DNA from: Spirochaetota bacterium
GTDB taxonomy: Bacteria > Spirochaetota > Spirochaetia > Treponematales > UBA12059
Length of the DNA: 43,563 bases
Direction: 5' to 3'
NCBI GenBank assembly: GCA_003247225.1
Contig: QKAK01000146.1
Location: 1-43,563, forward strand
Position 1 is the stretch's first letter. Each line of letters starts with the position of its first letter. Below the pieces are notes generated by a model. It saw only the letters and a list, made by a program, of their open reading frames with translations. It was not told the DNA's origin and made no database searches. The position numbers and the translations under genes were made by a program. Below, piece after piece: positions 4,048-18,895 of the stretch.

Positions 4048-4611
4048 ATGGATACCACCATCGTCGACATAGGCGAGTCGAACGCTTATAAGCTCGCCGC
4101 CGCCAGGGCGCTCATGGCGGCCTTCGCCGACAGGGAGCGTTCCGCTTGGCCCGACATCGAGCGGGCGGCGGAGGAAGTCGAGGAATGCGCCGAAGGCGCC
4201 AATCTATGCATCGGGGCCTATGACGGCCGCACGATGCTGGGATGGGCCGGACTGAGGCGCATGTACGAGACCACCTGGGAACTGCATCCCCTGGCGGTCG
4301 ACCCCCGCCGCCAGGGAAAAGGGATAGGCAGCCTGCTCCTACGCGAACTGGAGGCGCGGGCGGCCCGGCGCGGGATCATCGGCATCATGCTCGGTACCGA
4401 TGACGAGGAGTACGGCACGAGCCTATCGGCGGTCGACCTGGACGGGGGCAACGTATTCAGGGAAGCCGAGCGTATCCGGAACCTCAAGAGGCACCCGTAC
4501 GAGTTCTACCTGAAGAACGGCTACGCCATAGTCGGCGTGGTGCCGAACGCGAACGGCAGGAGGAAGCCGGACATCTGGATGTGGAAGGACCTGACGAATG
4601 TGGGGCGCTAA
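4048..4611 (+). CDS. GNAT acetyltransferase, AAC(6')-like subgroup
   Basis: The 187-residue protein carries the acetyl-CoA site R-R-Q-G-K-G-I-G-S-L-L at about residues 90-100. The C-terminal half (LGTDDEEYGTSLSAVDL, NLKRHPYEFYLKNGY, VGVVPNANGRRKPDIWMWK) closely resembles a group of proteins annotated as aminoglycoside 6'-N-acetyltransferases. That resemblance is recalled from family pattern, not searched. The natural substrate could be another amino-sugar or polyamine. A GGGAGAGGA ribosome site precedes ATG 4048. It lies 40 nt after the first GNAT gene and is probably co-transcribed with it. Confidence 0.85.
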   Translation: MDTTIVDIGESNAYKLAAARALMAAFADRERSAWPDIERAAEEVEECAEGANLCIGAYDGRTMLGWAGLRRMYETTWELHPLAVDPRRQGKGIGSLLLRELEARAARRGIIGIMLGTDDEEYGTSLSAVDLDGGNVFREAERIRNLKRHPYEFYLKNGYAIVGVVPNANGRRKPDIWMWKDLTNVGR

Positions 4612-6025: not shown

Positions 6026-9577
<3,552 letters not shown>

Positions 9578-9697: not shown

Positions 9698-9730
9698 GGG
9701 ATGGATACGCGATCCCGGCCGTTAATAGAT

Positions 9731-9766
9731 ATAAAAAGAGCAAAAGAGGGGCGCTCCGCGCCCCTC
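9731..9766 (-). terminator. Rho-independent terminator on the minus strand with no gene upstream
   Basis: A perfect 9-bp GC stem with a 3-nt loop (9746-9754 with 9758-9766) is followed on the minus strand by TTTTGCTCTTTTTATAT. It would end a transcript coming from the right, but the flanking gene there is on the plus strand. It may insulate nifJ or end a small RNA. Confidence 0.6.
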
Positions 9767-9786
9767 GACGATATGCCCCGGCGAAC

Positions 9787-9831
9787 GCGCGCCGTGCGGC
9801 GCGCCGGCTCGTCGCCTCGGGCGACGAGCCG
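9787..9831. repeat. Two adjacent perfect hairpins
   Basis: An 8-bp inverted repeat with a 2-nt centre spans 9787-9804. A perfect 12-bp stem with a 3-nt loop (9805-9816 with 9820-9831, core GGCTCGTCGCC) follows directly. Together with the terminator at 9731 they form three hairpins in 100 bp in the nifJ/histidine-kinase intergenic region; no other gene is visible there. Confidence 0.6.
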
Positions 9832-9854
9832 CTCGTCCTACCGTAACGTTCCGA

Positions 9855-9883
9855 TTGCCCGGCTCCCGGGCGTGGTCTATACT
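9855..9883 (+). promoter_or_regulatory. Promoter of the two-component operon
   Basis: TTGCCC (9855-9860) and TATACT (9878-9883) are separated by 17 bp. The predicted start near 9890 leaves a leader of about 37 nt to the GTG at 9927. Confidence 0.6.
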
Positions 9884-9926
9884 CGAACCCCGCGCGCGGT
9901 CCCCGTCGGCGCGGCAAGGAGCGATC

Positions 9927-11147
9927 GTGCGGGCCGGATCCTCGAAGGCGCTAGCTCCCATCCTCATCGTGGCGTCCTTCGCGTCGCTGTTCGCCGCCTC
10001 GCTCTTCGCCCTGGCGGGCATGGACCGCGAATACCGCGCGATGCAGCTGGGCATGGAGCGCTCGCTCCGCGCGGTACTGCGCGCGGCCCCGGCCGGCCGC
10101 TCCATACGGCCGGAGCTCGAGGGCCTGTTCTCGTCCGTCGAGCGGCTTGAGCGCGTAGCCGTCAGCGTCGACCTGGAGGGGCCGCGCGCGGCCCTGGCCC
10201 GGCTCGTCGAGCTGTACGACGCCGGCCCGACCGATACCGAGGCCTTCCTGGACCGCTTCTGCGAATCCTACGCGGTCCTGGAGACGGACCTGGCCAGGAA
10301 GCGGGCCGCGCTCGCCGATTCGTTCTACGCGCTCATGGCGGCCCTGGCCCTGGGCTTCATCGTGGCGGCGGCCATCGGCGCCGACCTGAGCGCCCGCCTG
10401 CGGCTGAGCCGCTACGAGGCCGGCTGGTCGCGCCGGAGCCTGCTCGCGTCCCTGTCCGCCGAGGAACGGCTGCGGAGGCGCATAGCCCGCGACCTGCACG
10501 ACGAGGTCGCCCAGGACATAGCCGCCGCCAGGATGCTGTGCGAACGGGCCGCCTCCGCGTCCGGCGAAGCGGCCGGCCGTCAGGGCCCGCTGCTCTCCGA
10601 GGCGGTCGGGCTCATGTCCGCCGCGGGAAAGCGCCTGCGCGGCCTGGCCCTGGACCTCAGGCCGCCCGAGCTCGAGCGCTCGGGCCTCTCCGCGGCCATC
10701 GAGGCGCTCTGCTCGAGGAGCCTCGGCGGGCAGGTTAGGCCCGCGGCGTTCAGGGCCGAGCCGGGAGCCGCCCGGGCCGCCGACTCGCTCGCCGACGAGG
10801 CGGCCATCCAGGCGTTCCGCATAGTCCAGGAGGCGCTCGCCAACGCCCGTAAGCACGCTCCCGGGCAGGACGCGGAGGTGTCGCTGCGCCTCGAAGGCGG
10901 CCGGGGCGACGGGACGCTCGTCGTCGAGGTGACAAACCGCCTCGTCGTCGCCGCGGGCGGCGCCGAAGGCGACGCGCCGTCCGAGCGGCTCGACGAGTCG
11001 GTATCGAGCGGCCTAGGGCAGGCGATAATGAGGGAACGGGCGGCCATCGCCGGCGGCGAGCTGAGCGCCGGCGCCGAGGCCGGATCGTTCCGGGTAACGA
11101 TGCGCGTACCCTCGCGCGAGCCGGTGACGGAGGATAGCGATGCGTAA
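9927..11147 (+). CDS. NarL-type membrane sensor histidine kinase
   Basis: From GTG 9927 (AAGGAG six nt upstream) the product is 406 residues. One membrane helix lies at about 10-32, a periplasmic segment of some 100 residues follows, then a second helix at about 135-157. The HisKA_3 dimerisation domain has the phospho-acceptor in RRRIARDLHDEVAQD (His near 191). The ATPase domain has IQAFRIVQEALANARKHA (N-box) and SSGLGQAIMRERA (G-box). The DLHDE motif marks the NarX/UhpB/DegS group that pairs with LuxR-type regulators. The gene overlaps its partner response regulator by 8 bp. The sensing domain is not recognisable. An in-frame ATG at 9855 is rejected because it lies within the promoter. Confidence 0.92.
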   Translation: MRAGSSKALAPILIVASFASLFAASLFALAGMDREYRAMQLGMERSLRAVLRAAPAGRSIRPELEGLFSSVERLERVAVSVDLEGPRAALARLVELYDAGPTDTEAFLDRFCESYAVLETDLARKRAALADSFYALMAALALGFIVAAAIGADLSARLRLSRYEAGWSRRSLLASLSAEERLRRRIARDLHDEVAQDIAAARMLCERAASASGEAAGRQGPLLSEAVGLMSAAGKRLRGLALDLRPPELERSGLSAAIEALCSRSLGGQVRPAAFRAEPGAARAADSLADEAAIQAFRIVQEALANARKHAPGQDAEVSLRLEGGRGDGTLVVEVTNRLVVAAGGAEGDAPSERLDESVSSGLGQAIMRERAAIAGGELSAGAEAGSFRVTMRVPSREPVTEDSDA

Positions 11148-11793
11148 GGCCCTGATAGTCGACGATCATCCCGTATTCAGGAACGGCCTCAAGACGGCCT
11201 TGGGCGGCTGGCGCGTCTTCGACGCGGTCGACGAGGCCGGCTCGGCGGCCGAGGCCCGCGACGCCGTGGACCGCGGCGGCTACGAGCTGGCGATGGTCGA
11301 CGTCGGCCTGCCGGACGGGAGCGGCATGGACCTGGTCGAGAGCCGGGCCGGCCTCGCCGGCGCTCCGGCCTTCTTCGTCCTGACCATGGAGGCCGACGCC
11401 TCGCTCGCGCGGCGGGCCGTCCGGGCGGGCGCCGCCGGCTTCGCGTCCAAGAACCTGGCGCTCGGCGTCCTGGAACTGGCGGTCAGGCTGGTCCTGGCCG
11501 GCGAGCCGTACATCGAGGGGGAGATACTGCGCGACCTCCTGACCGCCGACGCCGTGCTGTCGAGCTCCAGGCGGGAGGGGCGGCGGCTCGTCGGCGGGCT
11601 GACGCCCCGCGAGCGGGCCGCGCTCGACGCGCTGCTCGACGGGCTGAACGCCAAGGAGATGGCGCAGAGGCTCGGGGTCAGCCAGCGTACCGCGGAGAAC
11701 TACCAGAGCGCCGTCTACGCCAAGCTCGGCGCCAGGAGCCCGGTCGACCTCGTGCGCATCGCGCTCGGCGCCGGCCTGATAGCGTCACCGTAG
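11140..11793 (+). CDS. NarL/FixJ-family response regulator
   Basis: The 217-residue protein has a receiver domain (ALIVDDHPVFRNGL at the N-terminus, phospho-acceptor Asp54 in AMVDVGLPDGSG, conserved Thr/Lys positions in FVLTMEAD and AAGFASKN). Its LuxR-type DNA-binding domain spans about 148-210 (LTPRERAALDALLDGLNAKEMAQRLGVSQRTAENY). It should be phosphorylated by the histidine kinase just upstream and regulate transcription. ATG overlaps the kinase stop (ATGCGTAA), which implies translational coupling. Its 3' end overlaps the convergent membrane-protein gene by 9 bp. Targets cannot be inferred from the window. Confidence 0.95.
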   Translation: MRKALIVDDHPVFRNGLKTALGGWRVFDAVDEAGSAAEARDAVDRGGYELAMVDVGLPDGSGMDLVESRAGLAGAPAFFVLTMEADASLARRAVRAGAAGFASKNLALGVLELAVRLVLAGEPYIEGEILRDLLTADAVLSSSRREGRRLVGGLTPRERAALDALLDGLNAKEMAQRLGVSQRTAENYQSAVYAKLGARSPVDLVRIALGAGLIASP

Positions 11794-12432
11794 CGGCGCC
11801 GACGCGCCCGCTCCCCGCCGCGGCTCCGGGCCTGCCGCGCGAGCCTCCGCCTCCGCCTTGACGACGGCCAGGTACAGGGCCGGCGCCACGGCCAGCGTCT
11901 TGTCCACCAGGTTGACGGGCAGCCTGCCCAGGAAGGCCGCGGTCGCTACCGAGTCGGTGAACAGCGCGAAGCCGGCTACGATGTTGTCGATGTTCATCCT
12001 CGTGCCGCCCCCGTAGACGAGGGCCGCTATCAGGGCGCCGAGCAGCGCGTTGGCCAGGGTCACCGCGCCGACGCACAGCGAAACCGGCAGGGCGCCGCGG
12101 TACTTGCCCGAGGCCACGAAGGCCCTGACGACGAGCGCCGTGGCGATCCCGCAGACGGCGAACGGCAGGTGGACCCAGGGAAAGCCGTCGAGCGCCTCGT
12201 TCCAGCCGTTCGTCAAGATCGCCGTCGCTATGCCGTGCCATGGACCGAGTACCGCCGCCGCGATCGCCGTGAAGATCGAGTCGAGGAATAGGGGCAGCGA
12301 GTCCCTGGCCGCCAGGCTCAACAGGGCGTTGGCCAGCGGGAAGACGACGATGGCCAGGCACCACGCCAGGGCCGGCTTCCTCGAGACGGCGAGCGTCATG
12401 GCGCCCAATGAACTAGGTTGTAAAGCGCGCAT
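11785..12432 (-). CDS. Multi-pass membrane protein resembling an ECF-transporter S component
   Basis: The product from ATG 12432 is 215 residues with about five to six hydrophobic helices (ALAWCLAIVVFPLANALL, FTAIAAAVLGPWHGIATAILTN, FAVCGIATALVVRAFV, VTLANALLGALIAALVY, AGFALFTDSVATAAFLG). The segment LGPWHGIATAILTNGWNE resembles the GPWxG...GN motif of substrate-binding S components of energy-coupling factor transporters. No ATPase or T component is nearby, so it would need a shared module elsewhere. The start is uncertain: GGAG lies 11 nt away, and a TATACT hexamer lies only 5 nt upstream. ATG 12399 is an alternative. It converges with and overlaps the response-regulator gene by 9 bp. Confidence 0.65.
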   Translation of the reverse strand: MRALQPSSLGAMTLAVSRKPALAWCLAIVVFPLANALLSLAARDSLPLFLDSIFTAIAAAVLGPWHGIATAILTNGWNEALDGFPWVHLPFAVCGIATALVVRAFVASGKYRGALPVSLCVGAVTLANALLGALIAALVYGGGTRMNIDNIVAGFALFTDSVATAAFLGRLPVNLVDKTLAVAPALYLAVVKAEAEARAAGPEPRRGAGASAPLR

Positions 12433-12445
12433 GCCGTAGTATACT
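12418..12445 (+). promoter_or_regulatory. Candidate promoter with no protein gene downstream
   Basis: TTGTAA (12418-12423) and TATACT (12440-12445) are 16 bp apart on the plus strand. The octamer AGTATACT at 12438-12445 is palindromic, so a -10-like TATACT is present on both strands. No ORF follows before the terminator at 12614. Confidence 0.35.
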
Positions 12446-12451
12446 CCATGG

Positions 12452-12642
12452 CCGCGCGGTTCGCTCCGGCTTTTCAACGGCGATGGCCGCCGATCCGTGA
12501 GAATCCGCAAGCGAACGACGCATTTCGTCGCTTGAAGCCTCGGCCTCGTCGTTGTAGCATCCGAGCATCGGCATCCTGAGCCGCAAAATAATGTGTAAAG
12601 TACGCTTCGAGTCCGGGAGTCCCTAGGGGCTCCCGTTTTTTT
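12452..12642 (+). ncRNA. Candidate small RNA of about 190 nt, unidentified
   Basis: A sigma-70-like promoter ending at 12445 and a strong rho-independent terminator at 12614-12642 bracket about 190 nt with no credible ORF. Internal stem-loops are possible, for example CGACG/CGTCG around 12514-12533 and CCGA/TCGG around 12561-12571. Length is in the range of 6S RNA, but I cannot confirm the closing stem or central bubble of that family, and the SRP and tmRNA signatures are absent. It could also be an untranslated leader for the peptidase gene at 12764. The promoter is a guess, so the 5' end is uncertain. Confidence 0.3.
12614..12642 (+). terminator. Rho-independent terminator
   Basis: CGGGAG (12614-12619) pairs with CTCCCG (12630-12635), with an inner CCC/GGG extension, and is followed by a run of seven T. 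The nearest plus-strand gene upstream ends at 11793, behind an antisense gene, so this terminator appears to serve a separate transcript. Confidence 0.8.
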
Positions 12643-12763
12643 ATACGAGGCTCTTTATAGGGCTCCGCTCTAAGCTCGTAGTGAGTAGTCGCTCACGCAT
12701 CCTTGAAATCGTGCTATCATGGCTCGCCGGATCGGCGTATCGCGAGAATCACGGGAGGCGACT

Positions 12764-13963
12764 ATGCACGAGGAGAGAGCTAAGGCCGCGCACGCGTTCA
12801 TGAGCGGCATCATCGAGAGGCACGGCCCCCGCCTGCCCGGGAGCGAGGCTAGCCGGAAGGCGGCCGAGGAGCTGCGCGCGGCCGCGGCCGAGGCGGGCGA
12901 CGAGGCGGGCCTTCAGGAATTCAGGCTGAGCCCCGGGGCCTTCTTCGGCTACCTCAAGGCGATGATAGCGGCCTACGCCGTCGCGGCGCTGCTCCTGGCG
13001 CCGGCCCCGTGTCTGTCTTTCGTCCTCCTGGCCCTGGGAGCGGCGGCGCTCGTGCTGGAGTTCTTCCTCTACCGCGAGTTCCTCGACCCCGTATTCCCCA
13101 AGGCGCGCGGCGTCAACGTCTGGGCGTCGCTCGAGCCGAGCGGCCCGGTCGAACGGCAGCTCGTCGTCAGCGGCCACCACGACTCGGCGCCTATCTTCAA
13201 CTTCTTCGTCGACCGGCCGGAGCTGTACTCGAGGCGCGTCTACGGCGCGATGGGCGCCTACGCGGTCTTCCTGGTCGGATCGCTCGTCGTCGCGGTCGCC
13301 GTTCCGTCGATCATAGTCAGGGCCGTCGTAGCCGCCGCTTTCGCCCTCGGCTTCATGCTCGTAGCGCCGCTCTGGCGCTTCGTGGCCAAGCAGGGCACCC
13401 CGGGCGCCGGGGATAACCTCGCGGCGAGCGTCGCCGCCATCGAGATACTGCGCGAGTTCCGCTCCCGCCGGGACGCCGGGAAGGGGCTCGAGGGTACGCG
13501 CGTCGTGTTCGCCAGCTTCGACGCGGAGGAGGCCGGCCTGCGCGGCGCCCGCGCCTGGGCCGAGGCGAACCTGCCGGCCGAGGTGCCCACCTACGCCTAC
13601 AACATGGATTGCATCTATACGACCGACGAGGCGCGCTTCCTGTCCACCGACATCAACGGCAGCGTGACGATGTCGGCTCCGCTGGCCTCCGCCTGCTCGG
13701 CCATCGCGGCCGAGCTCGGCGCCGCCGTGCCGGTTAAGCCCATAGCCTTCCTGGCCGGCGGCACCGACGCGGCCGAGCTGGCCAAGCGCGGCGCCAAGGC
13801 TACTACCCTGATAGCCATGCCCTGGTCGAACGACGACCGCTCGCCGTCGTACCACACGCCGGACGACGTCCCCGCCGCCGTCGGCCTGCCTGCCCTCGAG
13901 CTGGCCATCGACGTCGGCGTGCGCCTGGCCGAGCGCCTCGACTCCGGCGAGCTGACCGTTTAA
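12764..13963 (+). CDS. Membrane-anchored M28-family zinc metallopeptidase
   Basis: The 399-residue protein has the complete M28 zinc site: SGHHD (His138, Asp140), GAGDN (Asp217), DAEEAG (Glu255 general base, Glu256 ligand), NMDC (Asp282) and SYHTPDD (His364). It should act as an aminopeptidase-like or carboxypeptidase-like hydrolase. Two hydrophobic segments lie at about 63-103 and two more at 161-203, splitting the first zinc motif from the second, so the enzyme appears membrane-embedded by an inserted helical region. This is an unusual layout for the family. ATG 12764 is chosen because GGGAGG lies 7 nt upstream; an in-frame ATG at 12719 lacks a ribosome site. Substrate unknown. Confidence 0.88.
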   Translation: MHEERAKAAHAFMSGIIERHGPRLPGSEASRKAAEELRAAAAEAGDEAGLQEFRLSPGAFFGYLKAMIAAYAVAALLLAPAPCLSFVLLALGAAALVLEFFLYREFLDPVFPKARGVNVWASLEPSGPVERQLVVSGHHDSAPIFNFFVDRPELYSRRVYGAMGAYAVFLVGSLVVAVAVPSIIVRAVVAAAFALGFMLVAPLWRFVAKQGTPGAGDNLAASVAAIEILREFRSRRDAGKGLEGTRVVFASFDAEEAGLRGARAWAEANLPAEVPTYAYNMDCIYTTDEARFLSTDINGSVTMSAPLASACSAIAAELGAAVPVKPIAFLAGGTDAAELAKRGAKATTLIAMPWSNDDRSPSYHTPDDVPAAVGLPALELAIDVGVRLAERLDSGELTV

Positions 13964-13970
13964 GGCCATA

Positions 13971-14055
13971 CGAATAATTTGATGAAGAGGATACGAGGAT
14001 ACGAGGGAAGAAAGAGAAATCGATAGGGGGTGGAGGGGCGCTTCCTCCCCCGCGC
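13971..14055 (+). repeat. Degenerate interspersed repeat, copy A
   Basis: The element starts CGAATAAT, runs through purine-rich GAGGATACGAGGATACGAGG and ends in a G-run/C-run hairpin (about 14026-14051, with the core GGAGG pairing CCTCC). The same order of parts appears inverted at 14938-15065. It fills the gap between the peptidase and phosphorylase genes, and on the minus strand the hairpin plus the T/C-rich tail could act as a terminator. Confidence 0.5.
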
Positions 14056-14844
14056 TCATCCCGCTCCGAGCGCCGTCAGCGCGGCGCGGTACAGCGTCTC
14101 GAGGCCGGCGTTCGTCGGCTTGGACAGGAAGTCGGGCTCCCATTCCGGTTCGGCGAGCGAGTCGCTGATCGTGAAGGCCGAGGCCAGGGCTACGCCGCGG
14201 TAGCGGGCCACCGTGAACAGCGCCGACGCCTCCATCTCCACGACCAGGGCCCCGTCGGCGGCGAACGCGTCGATCTCGGCCCTCGTCTCGCGGTACGGCG
14301 CGTCGGTCGTCCAGCTCCTGCCGCGGCGGAAGGCTACGCCGGCCGCGCCGATCGCGTCGGCCAGGGCCTCGGTCAGCGCCTCGTCCGGCAGGGCCGGCCC
14401 GCCTGCGGGCGCGTAATGGTACGACGTCCCCTCGTCGCGGAACGCCCCGTCGCACAGCACCAGGTCGCCCGGCCGGAGGCCCGGAACGAGCGCGCCGGCG
14501 GTGCCCATCGACACGAACGCGCGCGCGCCGAAGGCTATCAGCTCCTCGAACGAGGCGACCGCCGCCGGCGCCCCGAAGCCGAAGCCGCCCATGATGGCCA
14601 CCCTGCCGTCGGTCTCCTCGAGGTAGGCCAGCTTCTTCCTGAACAGGCCCGGGTGGAAACGCACCGGATGGTTCCGCGTGACGTAGGCGAACAGGGCCGG
14701 CTGGTACGACAGTATCACCGCCTCGGGCGGCGCGGCGGTCCCGCCGGCTCCCTTGAAGCCGGTCTCGTCCATGTAGTCCAGGAAGCGCCCCGGATCGACT
14801 AGCGACGGCTCGCGGTACTTGTCAGGATAGAGCGGTACGGGCAT
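14056..14844 (-). CDS. Purine/uridine-type nucleoside phosphorylase
   Basis: The 262-residue protein belongs to the PNP/UDP phosphorylase family: VSMGTAGALVPGLRPGDLVL (phosphate and ribose site region), WTTDAPYRET and VVEMEASALFTVARYRG (the E-M-E ribose-binding motif near residues 200-203), then TISDSL near the C-terminus. Length and motifs fit. It would split a nucleoside with phosphate into base and ribose-1-phosphate for salvage or catabolism. Uridine phosphorylase is the closest impression, but the base cannot be decided by eye. GGGAGG lies just upstream of ATG 14844, and a TATACT hexamer at 14869-14874 may be its -10. It is flanked by inverted copies of a degenerate repeat. Confidence 0.88.
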   Translation of the reverse strand: MPVPLYPDKYREPSLVDPGRFLDYMDETGFKGAGGTAAPPEAVILSYQPALFAYVTRNHPVRFHPGLFRKKLAYLEETDGRVAIMGGFGFGAPAAVASFEELIAFGARAFVSMGTAGALVPGLRPGDLVLCDGAFRDEGTSYHYAPAGGPALPDEALTEALADAIGAAGVAFRRGRSWTTDAPYRETRAEIDAFAADGALVVEMEASALFTVARYRGVALASAFTISDSLAEPEWEPDFLSKPTNAGLETLYRAALTALGAG

Positions 14845-14895
14845 GGCATCCTCCCTGACTAGCGCTCCAGTATACCCCAGAGGGCTTGTACGACA

Positions 14896-15065
14896 GAATA
14901 CGGAACAGGATGATCAGGATGAAGGCACGATGGACAAGATGGGGGAGGAAGTAGTGAACCGCCTCTCCCCCGGCCTTATCCTGAATATCATGCTCTTATC
15001 CGGATCATCCCGTCCAAATTTCCATTATTCGCTCTTTTATCTCTTTTGCTCTTATTCTCTTCGTT
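14896..15065 (-). repeat. Degenerate interspersed repeat, copy B, within a large imperfect palindrome
   Basis: Read on the minus strand it starts AAGAGCAAAAGAG (15041-15053), CGAATAAT (15024-15031), then GGATGATC and GGATAAGG blocks, and ends in a GGGGGAG/CTCCCCC hairpin (14941-14972), matching the order in copy A. The whole stretch from GAATA at 14896 to TATTC at 15030 is also an imperfect palindrome, with GGATGATC at 14908-14915 mirrored by GATCATCC at 15003-15010. No gene is credible in 14845-15088. Confidence 0.5.
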
Positions 15066-15088
15066 CGACTTAGTAAATGCGGCCGCTT

Positions 15089-17738
15089 CTACTCGTGCTG
15101 CCAGGCGAGGGTCGGGAAGGATCCGGCGTCGAAGTACCATAGAGCGCTTGTCTCGTTCCAGTCGCCGAAATCCGACCCGTCATCGAGCGTCGCGCCGTTC
15201 GGACCGCTGACGTCCGTCGGATTACCGAGCGCGCCGGCCGCGGGCGCGTGCCAGAAGCAGGTGGTCCCTCCGTTGTACGCCGCCGTCGCGGATCCGATGA
15301 ACGCGCCGGTGACCTGATCGCTAAGTTCTCCTGCGAAGTAGCAGCGCTCCACGCTAGGAGTACCGTAGCTGAGGTTCACCTGCCCGATGAAGCCGCCGTT
15401 GTTGGTCGTCGCGGCCGGTTGTACCGACTCGTTAACATAGCAGTCCTCTATGGTCGACGCCTGGTACACCGCCCCGGCGAAGCCGCCTATCGTATTGTCT
15501 CCTATGACGGTTCCCGTCGCGTAGCACTGCCGTACGCTGGCGCAGGTCCCGGTCGCGGTCGCCGCGCTACCGAGGCTCCCGACGAAGCCACCGATGATCT
15601 GAGTCCCGGCCGTAACATCGCTCGCGCTGTAGCAGGCCTCTATATCCGTGCCTTCCTTGGCGTAGCCTATGAACCCGCCGACGAACCGGCCTAGGGTCGC
15701 GCTCGTGGCGGTCACCGCGCCGCTCGAGCTCGACGATCGTATCTGGACTCGGCCGCTTCCGTTCGTATGGATCGAGCCCGATCCGGCGAAACCGCCTATG
15801 TACTCTCCGTCGGTAGCCGTTACGGCGCAGGTCGATGCGCATCCGTCGATCTCTATGCTGCCTGATCCCGAGTATAGCTGCCCGGCGAACCCGCCGACCT
15901 GGGTAACGTTGCTGCATTGAACGATTCCGGAAGCGTCGCAGCCATCGATCCTGAGGGTAACTCCGACGCTCGGCCATATATATCCGGCGAAGCCGCCTAG
16001 GTTCATGCCGTCTCCCGCGCCGCCGTAGAGGATGTTCCCTCGGGCTGAGCAGTTCGATATCACCGAGGCGTCGCGTATCCATCCGGCGAATCCGCCGACC
16101 TGCTGCGCGTTAGGAGACGTCGTCCCGTCGGCGGGGCCTATGTCTATAGTAGCCGCGCATGATTCGACGGTCCCGCCCAGCTCTCCCGCCAAGCCGCCCA
16201 GGTGCGTCGGAACGCTGGCGGTGGATTCGATCGTCCCCGAGACGCTTACCCTGGTCAGGGTGCCGTTCGTGCAGACGCCGGCCAGCCCTCCGATATACGT
16301 CGTCCCCGTCAGGGCTATCCCCGTTATCGTCACGTCCGATACGGTAGCGCCGCTTATGGTGCCGGCGAGCGCCCCTAGATGGGCCGCCGTGGACGAGCCG
16401 CTCACGGCGCCGATCGTAAGGTTCCTGACGGCGGCCCCCGTCGATACGAGCTTGAAGAAGCCCGCGTCCGTCACGGAGGCAGCGCCGAGCGCGACGTTCG
16501 AGACGCTTGCCGCCGCCGTCGTAGTCGCCGGTGAATGACGAGATGGGCGTCCACGCGCCGGTCGTCGCATCCGCGCCCAGGTCGATGTCGGCGGTCTGCC
16601 TGAAATGGGCGCCCGGCGCGTAGCGCACGTTATACAGGTCCAGGGGCGTGGCGACGAGGTATGGCGACGCCTCGGTCCCGAGGCCTCCCGAGAAGTAGCC
16701 GTCCGCGCGGATGGCCGCTATATCGTCGGCCGATAGGGCGCCCGCGTAGACGCGGAGATCGTCGACGGAGCCGTAGTAGTTGTATTCGGCCCCTTCGAAG
16801 AACGACGCGCCGAGCCTGATAGGCTGAGCCGTCGAGAAGGCGTCTAGGGCGCTAGAGACCCTCATGGAGCCGTTGAGATAGATGCTCGCCTGGCCGGTCG
16901 CCGAATCCACCACGGCGGCGACATGGTTCCAGTCGCCGTTAGCGACGACGTAGTCGGCCGTCTGCATATTGTCGCCCGAGTCGGTCTCGAGCCTTAGGGC
17001 GTTCGATCCGCTCAGGTAGAGCGTGAAGCCGTCCCCGTTGTATTCTTGACGGTTCGTGAGGATGACCCGGTCGGTGTCGCCTTCGGGGCGTATCCATACC
17101 GACAGCGTGAACGCGTCCGGCATCTCAGCGGGCTGGATGTCAAGGTATTCGGATTCGGCGATATAGATGTAGCCTCGGCCGTCGAGGCTGGGGATCGACG
17201 CGGAAGACGCGGTGGGGCCCCATGATCCTGCCGATTCCGGTTTGGCGCTCGTCATGCGCCCCTTCTCGTCGTTCAGGTCCGTATCGAAGCTGAAGCGCGA
17301 GACGAGCGCGCGTTCGGCCCAGGCCAGGGTAAGGGAGACGACGTTCTCGGCGTCGGGGGCGATAGTCACGGAACGGGTCGCTACGAAGGCCTCGCCGCCG
17401 TCGGCGTCGTAGCCGCTTATGGTGATGGTCCAGTCGCCGACGAGCAGTTCGAGGCTCACCCTGTTGTCGGCGGCGGATACGGTCGCCGCGTCAAACTCCC
17501 AGCTGCCCGAGCGGCCGGCCGGGCCGTCGCCTTCGAGCAGCCAGCGGCTTACGGTGCCCGCCAGGCCGGCCAGGCCGCCCGGGGCTCGAGACGCTTCGCG
17601 CGAGGCGGCCGGTAAGGCTATGGTCAGGGCGCCGGTAGCGTCCGGGGCGCCGAGCGTCGGGGAGCGGCACGAGGCCGTTACGCTTAGCATCAGTATGCTG
17701 GCTATGGTTAGGCCGAGACGGCCGGAGTGGCGCTTCAT
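15089..17738 (-). pseudogene. Frameshifted LamG/GLUG-repeat surface lipoprotein
   Basis: Two frames together encode one protein of about 880 residues. The first (from ATG 17738, GTAGGAG upstream) has a lipoprotein signal (ILMLSVTASCRSP), a beta-sandwich region and a concanavalin A/LamG-like domain (FTLSVWIRPEGDTDRVILTNRQEY, WNHVAAVVDSATGQASIYLNGS). It then reaches FTGDYDGGG, the usual entry into GLUG repeats. There the frame breaks, near 16505-16520, and the second frame continues VSNVALGAAS... and about twelve GG[LF]AG units (YIGGLAG, VGGFAGW, IGGFAGA) to the stop at 15089. Family spacing after DGGG fits loss of 2 nt better than gain of 1. GLUG proteins are typically cell-surface and adhesin-like. 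A sequencing error in the GGCGGCGGC tract is possible. Confidence 0.8.
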
Positions 17739-17862
17739 GGACGGGCTCCTACTAATAGATTTTCTATCGATTCGTTCGTAGAGACGCGTAGCAAGCTATC
17801 ACGCCGGCCCGTGGAAATCCAAGGCGGGCCGCGATCGGCGTCATGGTTATTTTATTGTAGTC

Positions 17863-17892
17863 TTGATATCGATACAAATTTAGATATATACT
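17863..17892 (+). promoter_or_regulatory. Promoter of nfnAB
   Basis: TTGATA (17863-17868) and TATACT (17887-17892) are 18 bp apart within an AT-rich stretch. The predicted start near 17899 gives a leader of about 100 nt before the GTG at 17999. Confidence 0.65.
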
Positions 17893-17924
17893 ATCCCCGG
17901 TTCGCCGACGAGTTTCTGGCGACG

Positions 17925-17979
17925 GACGGAAACGCTCGACGAGGATAGCGCGATGCTCTATTATGGTGGCGTTTCCGTC
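17925..17979 (+). promoter_or_regulatory. Long inverted repeat in the nfnAB leader
   Basis: GACGGAAACGC (17925-17935) is perfectly mirrored by GCGTTTCCGTC (17969-17979). The 33-nt loop contains a small AGC/GCT hairpin. The stem ends about 10 nt before the AGGAGG ribosome site, so the RNA could fold into a regulatory leader, or the DNA could be a protein-binding dyad. I know of no riboswitch class that it matches. Confidence 0.45.
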
Positions 17980-17998
17980 ATTAATAAGAGGAGGAAGG

Positions 17999-18895
17999 GT
18001 GAATAAGATAGTATCGAAGGCCCGCCTGTCCGACGAGGTATTCCGCATCGAGGTGGAGGCCCCGAACATAGCCCGCGAGCGCAAGGCCGGCCAGTTCGTG
18101 ATCGTCCAGACCGACACCGAGTGGGGCGAGCGCGTTCCGCTGACCATAGCCGACGCCGATCCCCATCGCGGCACCGTCACGCTGATCTTCCAGACGGTCG
18201 GCGTCAGTACGCACCGCCTGGCGGAGCTCGAGCCCGGCCAGTCCATCGAGGCGATGCTCGGTCCGCTCGGCAACCCGACGCATATCGAGCGCTTCGGCCA
18301 CGCGGTCTGCGTGGGCGGCGGTATCGGCGTGGCGCCGATGCACCCTATAGCCCAGGCCCTGAAGCAGGCGGGCAACAAGGTTACCATTATCATAGGCGCG
18401 CGCACCAAGGACCTCGTCATCCTGGAGGACGAGATGCGCGCTATAGCCGACGAGCTGATCGTGGTGACCGACGACGGCAGCTACGGTCGGAAGGCCCTCG
18501 TCACCGAGCCGCTCAAGGAGCTGTGCGGGGCCGAGACGCCTCCCGATATCGTCGTCGCGATAGGCCCGCCGGTGATGATGAAGTTCTGCGCCGAGGCTAC
18601 CAGGCCCTTCGGCGTCAGGACGCTCGCGTCGCTCAATACGATCATGATAGACGGCACCGGCATGTGCGGCGGCTGCCGCGTCTCTGTCGGCGGCCAGACC
18701 AAGTTCGTCTGCGTCGACGGGCCGGAGTTCGACGCCCACCAGGTCGACTGGGACGGCATGCTGCTCAGGCTGCGCGCCTACAAGTCGCAGGAAGACGCCG
18801 CGCACAAGGCCCTGCACGATGGCGGCCAGTGCCGGCTCGACGCGATGGCCGACGACGCCAGGAAGAAGGCCGAAGCCGAGGGAGGCTCGCGATGA
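17999..18895 (+). CDS. nfnA: NfnA-type ferredoxin-NADP reductase subunit (PyrK/GltA-associated FAD protein)
   Basis: The 298-residue protein starts at GTG 17999, with AGGAGG close upstream, giving the usual N-terminus NKIVSKARLSDEVFRIEVEAP. It has an FAD domain (KAGQFVIVQTDTEWGERVPLTIAD), an NAD(P)-binding domain (CVGGGIGVAPMHPIAQAL) and a C-terminal [2Fe-2S] motif (DGTGMCGGCRVSVGG...FVCVDGPEF). This is the small FAD/[2Fe-2S] subunit of NADH-dependent reduced ferredoxin:NADP+ oxidoreductase, which bifurcates electrons between ferredoxin, NADH and NADPH. It overlaps nfnB by ATGA, so the two are translated together. Without nfnB it could be confused with the PyrK subunit of dihydroorotate dehydrogenase, but no pyrD is present. 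Cytoplasmic. Confidence 0.93.
   Translation: MNKIVSKARLSDEVFRIEVEAPNIARERKAGQFVIVQTDTEWGERVPLTIADADPHRGTVTLIFQTVGVSTHRLAELEPGQSIEAMLGPLGNPTHIERFGHAVCVGGGIGVAPMHPIAQALKQAGNKVTIIIGARTKDLVILEDEMRAIADELIVVTDDGSYGRKALVTEPLKELCGAETPPDIVVAIGPPVMMKFCAEATRPFGVRTLASLNTIMIDGTGMCGGCRVSVGGQTKFVCVDGPEFDAHQVDWDGMLLRLRAYKSQEDAAHKALHDGGQCRLDAMADDARKKAEAEGGSR

Follow-up and report, generated by a model that had tools for sequence, protein, structure and literature searches.

A net two-nucleotide frame break in a LamG and GLUG-repeat gene of a Spirochaetota bacterium

The window, that is, the whole stretch of 43,563 nucleotides of DNA analysed here, carries on its minus strand a gene in which a LamG-containing, lipoprotein-like frame beginning at ATG 17738 gives way to a GLUG-repeat frame with its stop at 15089-15091. 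In the sequence as it stands, the frame break between the two parts is genuine. It seems likely, with a probability of roughly 0.6, that this is a recently inactivated accessory gene, an ordinary frameshifted gene bearing a real mutation. The features referred to below are as follows.

16110..17738, minus strand: upstream frame of 542 codons; about 411 are in phase, as far as 16506, and the run-on that follows, about 131 codons out of frame, ends with the stop at 16110
17667..17738, minus strand: signal-peptide-like start ending in TASC, a possible lipobox with Cys 24 (translation read by eye)
16716..17150, minus strand: LamG domain PF13385 (Laminin_G_3), residues 197-341 (Pfam, E 1.1e-24)
16506..16535, minus strand: FTGDYDGGGK, the final in-phase stretch ahead of the break and the end of the linker (translation, junction comparison)
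16509..16517, minus strand: GGCGGCGGC, a run of 3-nt units next to the break (sequence scan)
16496..16508, minus strand: most likely interval of the frame change, best position 16505, net loss of 2 nt (codon usage within 3 nats, HMM, junction spacing)
15089..16516, minus strand: downstream GLUG frame, 475 open codons and a stop (Pfam GLUG, open-frame test, model)
16031..16108, minus strand: GLUG motif match, 25 bits (Pfam profile search)
15422..15496, minus strand: GLUG motif match, 23.4 bits (Pfam profile search)
14056..14844, minus strand: flanking phosphorylase gene (PF01048, Pfam)
17963..18895, plus strand: flanking oxidoreductase subunit gene (DHODB_Fe-S_bind and NAD_binding_1, Pfam)

Two reading frames and the position of the break

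Both halves of the gene are clearly recognizable. The LamG match scores 87.7 bits against a Pfam cut-off of 27.6, and the downstream frame matches GLUG (PF07581) with an E-value of 1.3e-17 and 63.4 bits against a cut-off of 20.5. Reading the N-terminus by eye places TASC at residues 21-24 of the upstream-frame protein, which is thus possibly lipoprotein-like. The run-on of about 131 residues to 16110 is Arg-rich. No peptidase domain, Peptidase M26 included, was found in either half with Pfam at E<=0.01. Our searches near the gene yielded no terminator-like sites and two promoter-like sites, both on the plus strand (shuffled sequence gave a mean of 1.0), and a repeat scan of 14700-18100 showed no recognizable mobile-element ends.

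In order to locate the frame change we used codon usage. A change-point model with a single switch at 16505 scores +169, compared with −121 without a switch. A six-frame codon HMM run over the window returned 15 same-strand switches. An upstream-frame stop close to a frame switch is the pattern of normal gene ends, and 14 of the switches have such a stop within 90 nt; the one at 16505 is the sole exception. Coordinates, Pfam matches, codon usage and the HMM therefore confirm what an earlier note had described from the sequence, namely that the N-terminal frame runs into FTGDYDGGG and the GLUG repeats continue in another frame. The same note had placed the break at a GGC run at 16510-16518. Its vicinity to GGCGGCGGC holds, but the run itself occupies 16509-16517 and codon usage favours a position just 3' of it, with a break inside the last GGC, which scores 4 to 5 nats below the best position in the change-point model, as a less likely alternative.

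The downstream frame had been said to be free of stops for over 470 codons, and this proved correct: it is open for 475 codons, whereas none of 2000 base shuffles of the stretch was open throughout (mean 12.4 stops) and the other five frames contain 7 to 26 stops. The claim that the change is recent is compatible with this openness, although the limit that it sets is weak, since 475 stop-free codons tell us only that neutral divergence after the break has stayed below about 0.07 substitutions per site.

The junction in relatives and in a structural model

To compare the junction with its counterparts, we collected 43 loci and left out six: five from the contig of the window itself (L001, L008, L009, L010 and L012) and L011, which repeats part of L043. 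In 20 of the 37 loci that were left (two of these loci, L005 and L007, being on one contig) we counted 31 copies of the 5' half of the junction motif, half-motifs in frames of fewer than 100 codons having been left out of the count. In every one of the 31 junctions the frame continues straight through, for at least 97 codons. The downstream motif stands at its usual place and in the same frame in 23 of them; the other eight miss the strict pattern, yet an I, L or V is present at the expected position in all 31 (output read by eye). A chance match to the downstream motif in a shifted frame was seen at a single junction. In the window, by comparison, the matching V lies 2 nt too near and in another frame, which amounts to a net loss of 2 nt. 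The two-nucleotide loss proposed earlier thus agrees with the spacing at all 31 homologous junctions, and the comparison with homologues that had been asked for at the same time gives an unbroken frame throughout the 20 loci. A one-base gain in place of the two-base loss was considered and rejected; it would bring the hydrophobic residue closer, by one place, than it is at any of the 31 junctions.

In L026, L027, L029, L031 and L034, tblastn also placed linker and GLUG part in one frame, and the alignment agrees. These named relatives were found largely via the linker that precedes the GLUG part, and LamG was not found in any of the three scanned for domains (L024, L027 and L029). At the level of sequence, what the relatives demonstrate is linker-GLUG continuity only, not the entire LamG-plus-GLUG architecture. 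The linker just ahead of the GLUG solenoid (the HFRQTADI region) is 40-60% identical in the best segments of L022-L031 across distant phyla, in a search that selected for the linker; this likeness suggests that the module has been exchanged widely.

We modelled 400 residues of an intact relative, L029, using nine aligned sequences (mean pLDDT 84.3). In this model the strands flanking the junction (82-84 and 89-91) are part of a single series of solenoid strands (block pLDDT 93 and 95), so that the break site is predicted to fall inside one beta-solenoid, among its first turns. The window's own GLUG half is likewise modelled as a strand-rich beta-solenoid, confident to about residue 412. The best solved match to the L029 model is 3n6z, a putative IgA1 protease (E 8.4e-8, TM 0.45 by query), followed by the IgA1-protease structures 7uvk and 6xjb. 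The GLUG-motif (PF07581) beta-solenoid module also occurs beside M26 IgA1-protease N-terminal regions. The window gene resembles this module in its downstream frame with GLUG matches, as does the intact relative in its structural matches; it differs in that it has no Pfam peptidase domain, in that LamG precedes the module, and in that the module is out of frame. In the published work, the accessible text of PMC7695701 describes the pneumococcal IgA1 protease as having a beta-helix in its N-terminal domain, and that of PMC4330952 mentions a GLUG gene with a gap.

Gene context and distribution

Among the eight genomes of the genus, the flanking phosphorylase and oxidoreductase genes adjoin in three (G002, G003 and G007), at distances of about 142, 120 and 97 nt, respectively, as against 3118 nt in the window. 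In G004 the oxidoreductase gene lies immediately downstream of the pyruvate:ferredoxin oxidoreductase gene, and in G001 one 242-codon reading frame separates these two. The site could be read in these five relatives, and the LamG-GLUG gene is absent from it in all of them; it was unreadable in G006 (no oxidoreductase subunit match) and in G005 (a weak match and a contig-end fragment). Positions 9698-17962 of the window form a variable stretch, bordered by the pyruvate:ferredoxin oxidoreductase gene on one side and the oxidoreductase genes on the other, which contains a two-component pair (9855-11793), a frame at 12719-13963, the phosphorylase gene and the LamG-GLUG gene. Its counterpart measures only about 1.8 kb, the phosphorylase included, in G007, and about 0.3 kb in G004. 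Judged from the sequences compared, the LamG-GLUG gene is an insertion in this variable stretch. Elsewhere in the window, a plus-strand gene at 4048-4611 encodes an acetyltransferase near the AAC(6')-Ia aminoglycoside-acetyltransferase family (261.2 bits, just below the NCBIfam cut-off of 265).

The gene itself is sparsely distributed. Its N-terminal part has a match in one of 390 genomes of the order at E<=1e-8, which is the genome it comes from, and in six of 58 relatives at E<=0.001, made up of that same genome and five weak partial matches. The GLUG half has matches in two of the eight genomes of the genus (E<=0.001) and in three of the 390 of the order (E<=1e-8), its own genome being counted in both. 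We found no second GLUG gene in the genome (Pfam, E<=0.001), both matches lying inside the LamG-GLUG gene, and no close orthologue for a selection test among the 58 relatives and the 390 genomes of the order. We infer that the gene was acquired laterally. Since it lies inserted between two genes that are neighbours in G002, G003 and G007, and its N-terminal part finds a match at E<=1e-8 within the order in its own genome alone, loss of the gene should be tolerated.

Origin of the break and its meaning for the gene

To gauge how frequent breaks of this kind are in the assembly, a draft of 224 contigs, we applied the codon scan to the window and to 60 stretches of other contigs (643,996 bases), 687,559 bases in all. 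Out of 208 same-strand switches, 10 were raw candidates, six of them scan-start artefacts with a stop at the block end and one doubtful (L092, with an Arg-rich end). This left three convincing breaks, the window's included, or about 4 per million bases. One is a stop-less frame switch near 7411 on the minus strand of L102 (G000:C141), in an M20 amidohydrolase gene with Pfam M20 in the downstream part. Another lies near 503 on the plus strand of L093 (G000:C131), in an ABC-transporter permease gene with BPD_transp_1 in the downstream part, where perhaps more sequence is missing. From this low count it appears that the assembly is not riddled with breaks, and the density fits both sporadic real mutations and sporadic consensus errors.

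An error of assembly or consensus is the one competing account that we regard as a serious, if lesser, possibility. The gene would then be intact in the organism, and the 2 nt would have gone missing through low coverage, a strain mixture or a miscalled indel. The draft state of the assembly, a downstream frame without further decay and the presence of the two other breaks in genes of ordinary families all speak for it, and caution is also called for by the accessible text of PMC11017572, which traces many putative bacterial pseudogenes to assembly errors. Against it stand the low density of breaks, a site that is no homopolymer, and the absence of the gene from the site in the five readable relatives, which makes its loss plausible. 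On these grounds, together with the dispensability of the gene in the genus, we favour a real mutation, the weighting being a matter of judgement, and take the break to be present in the organism and not in the consensus alone. The window gene resembles an ordinary frameshifted bacterial gene in that its relatives are in one frame, a single small net indel accounts for the change and the gene is accessory. It differs from an ordinary pseudogene in showing no further decay, and the break is therefore either recent or an artefact.

Readings in which the break has a function fare far worse. That it is a switch or recoding point, by which one locus would supply a LamG-only lipoprotein as well as a LamG-solenoid form, appears very improbable. 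Reversible phase variation at a short repeat, as the earlier note had suggested, would turn the solenoid on and off through repeat length, and like phase-variable surface proteins the gene encodes a repeat protein with a frame break next to a short repeat. However, the GGC run adjoining the break has a 3-nt unit, so that gain or loss of units preserves the frame. Within 16480-16545 we found no runs of 1-nt (at least four copies), 2-nt (at least three) or 4-, 5- or 6-nt units (at least two), Tandem Repeats Finder reported no array at the break site, and all 31 junctions in relatives are in frame. The suggestion thus does not stand, and its chance of being right is close to nil. As a phase-variable contingency gene it was discarded, no repeat whose unit is not a multiple of three having been found at the site.

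Programmed ribosomal frameshifting could join the two frames, both of which are open around the site, but none of the 31 junctions in relatives needs a shift or conserves the frame change. No unusual RNA fold shows up at 16400-16540 (z −0.37, with 65 of 200 shuffles folding at least as well), and no slippery heptamer was seen by eye. On the strength of the relatives, in which there is no conserved site, and of the RNA fold we rejected programmed frameshifting, and we accord it a negligible probability. Two separate overlapping genes, with the second starting from about the downstream-frame ATG at 16570, are scarcely more credible: before about 16508 codon usage backs the upstream frame and not the downstream one, the two sides form one frame in relatives and one solenoid in the model of the intact relative, and no ribosome-binding site was seen by eye.

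The explanation that we prefer is thus the recent inactivation of an accessory gene. In this scenario a lineage-specific LamG and GLUG gene would have lost its frame via a net loss of 2 nt in the first turns of the solenoid. Translation of the sequence as written would yield the LamG portion with a tail of about 131 out-of-frame residues, and no in-phase solenoid. The break would be recent enough for the downstream frame to have stayed stop-free and to have kept its coding statistics.

For annotation, the two frames should be read as one frameshifted gene and not as two genes, and the trinucleotide run should not be mistaken for a frame switch. A lipoprotein-like protein combining LamG with a GLUG beta-solenoid would probably have a role in binding glycans or surfaces. 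If sequencing reads were to contain mixed lengths, the locus would become an example of a repeat protein that varies within a population.
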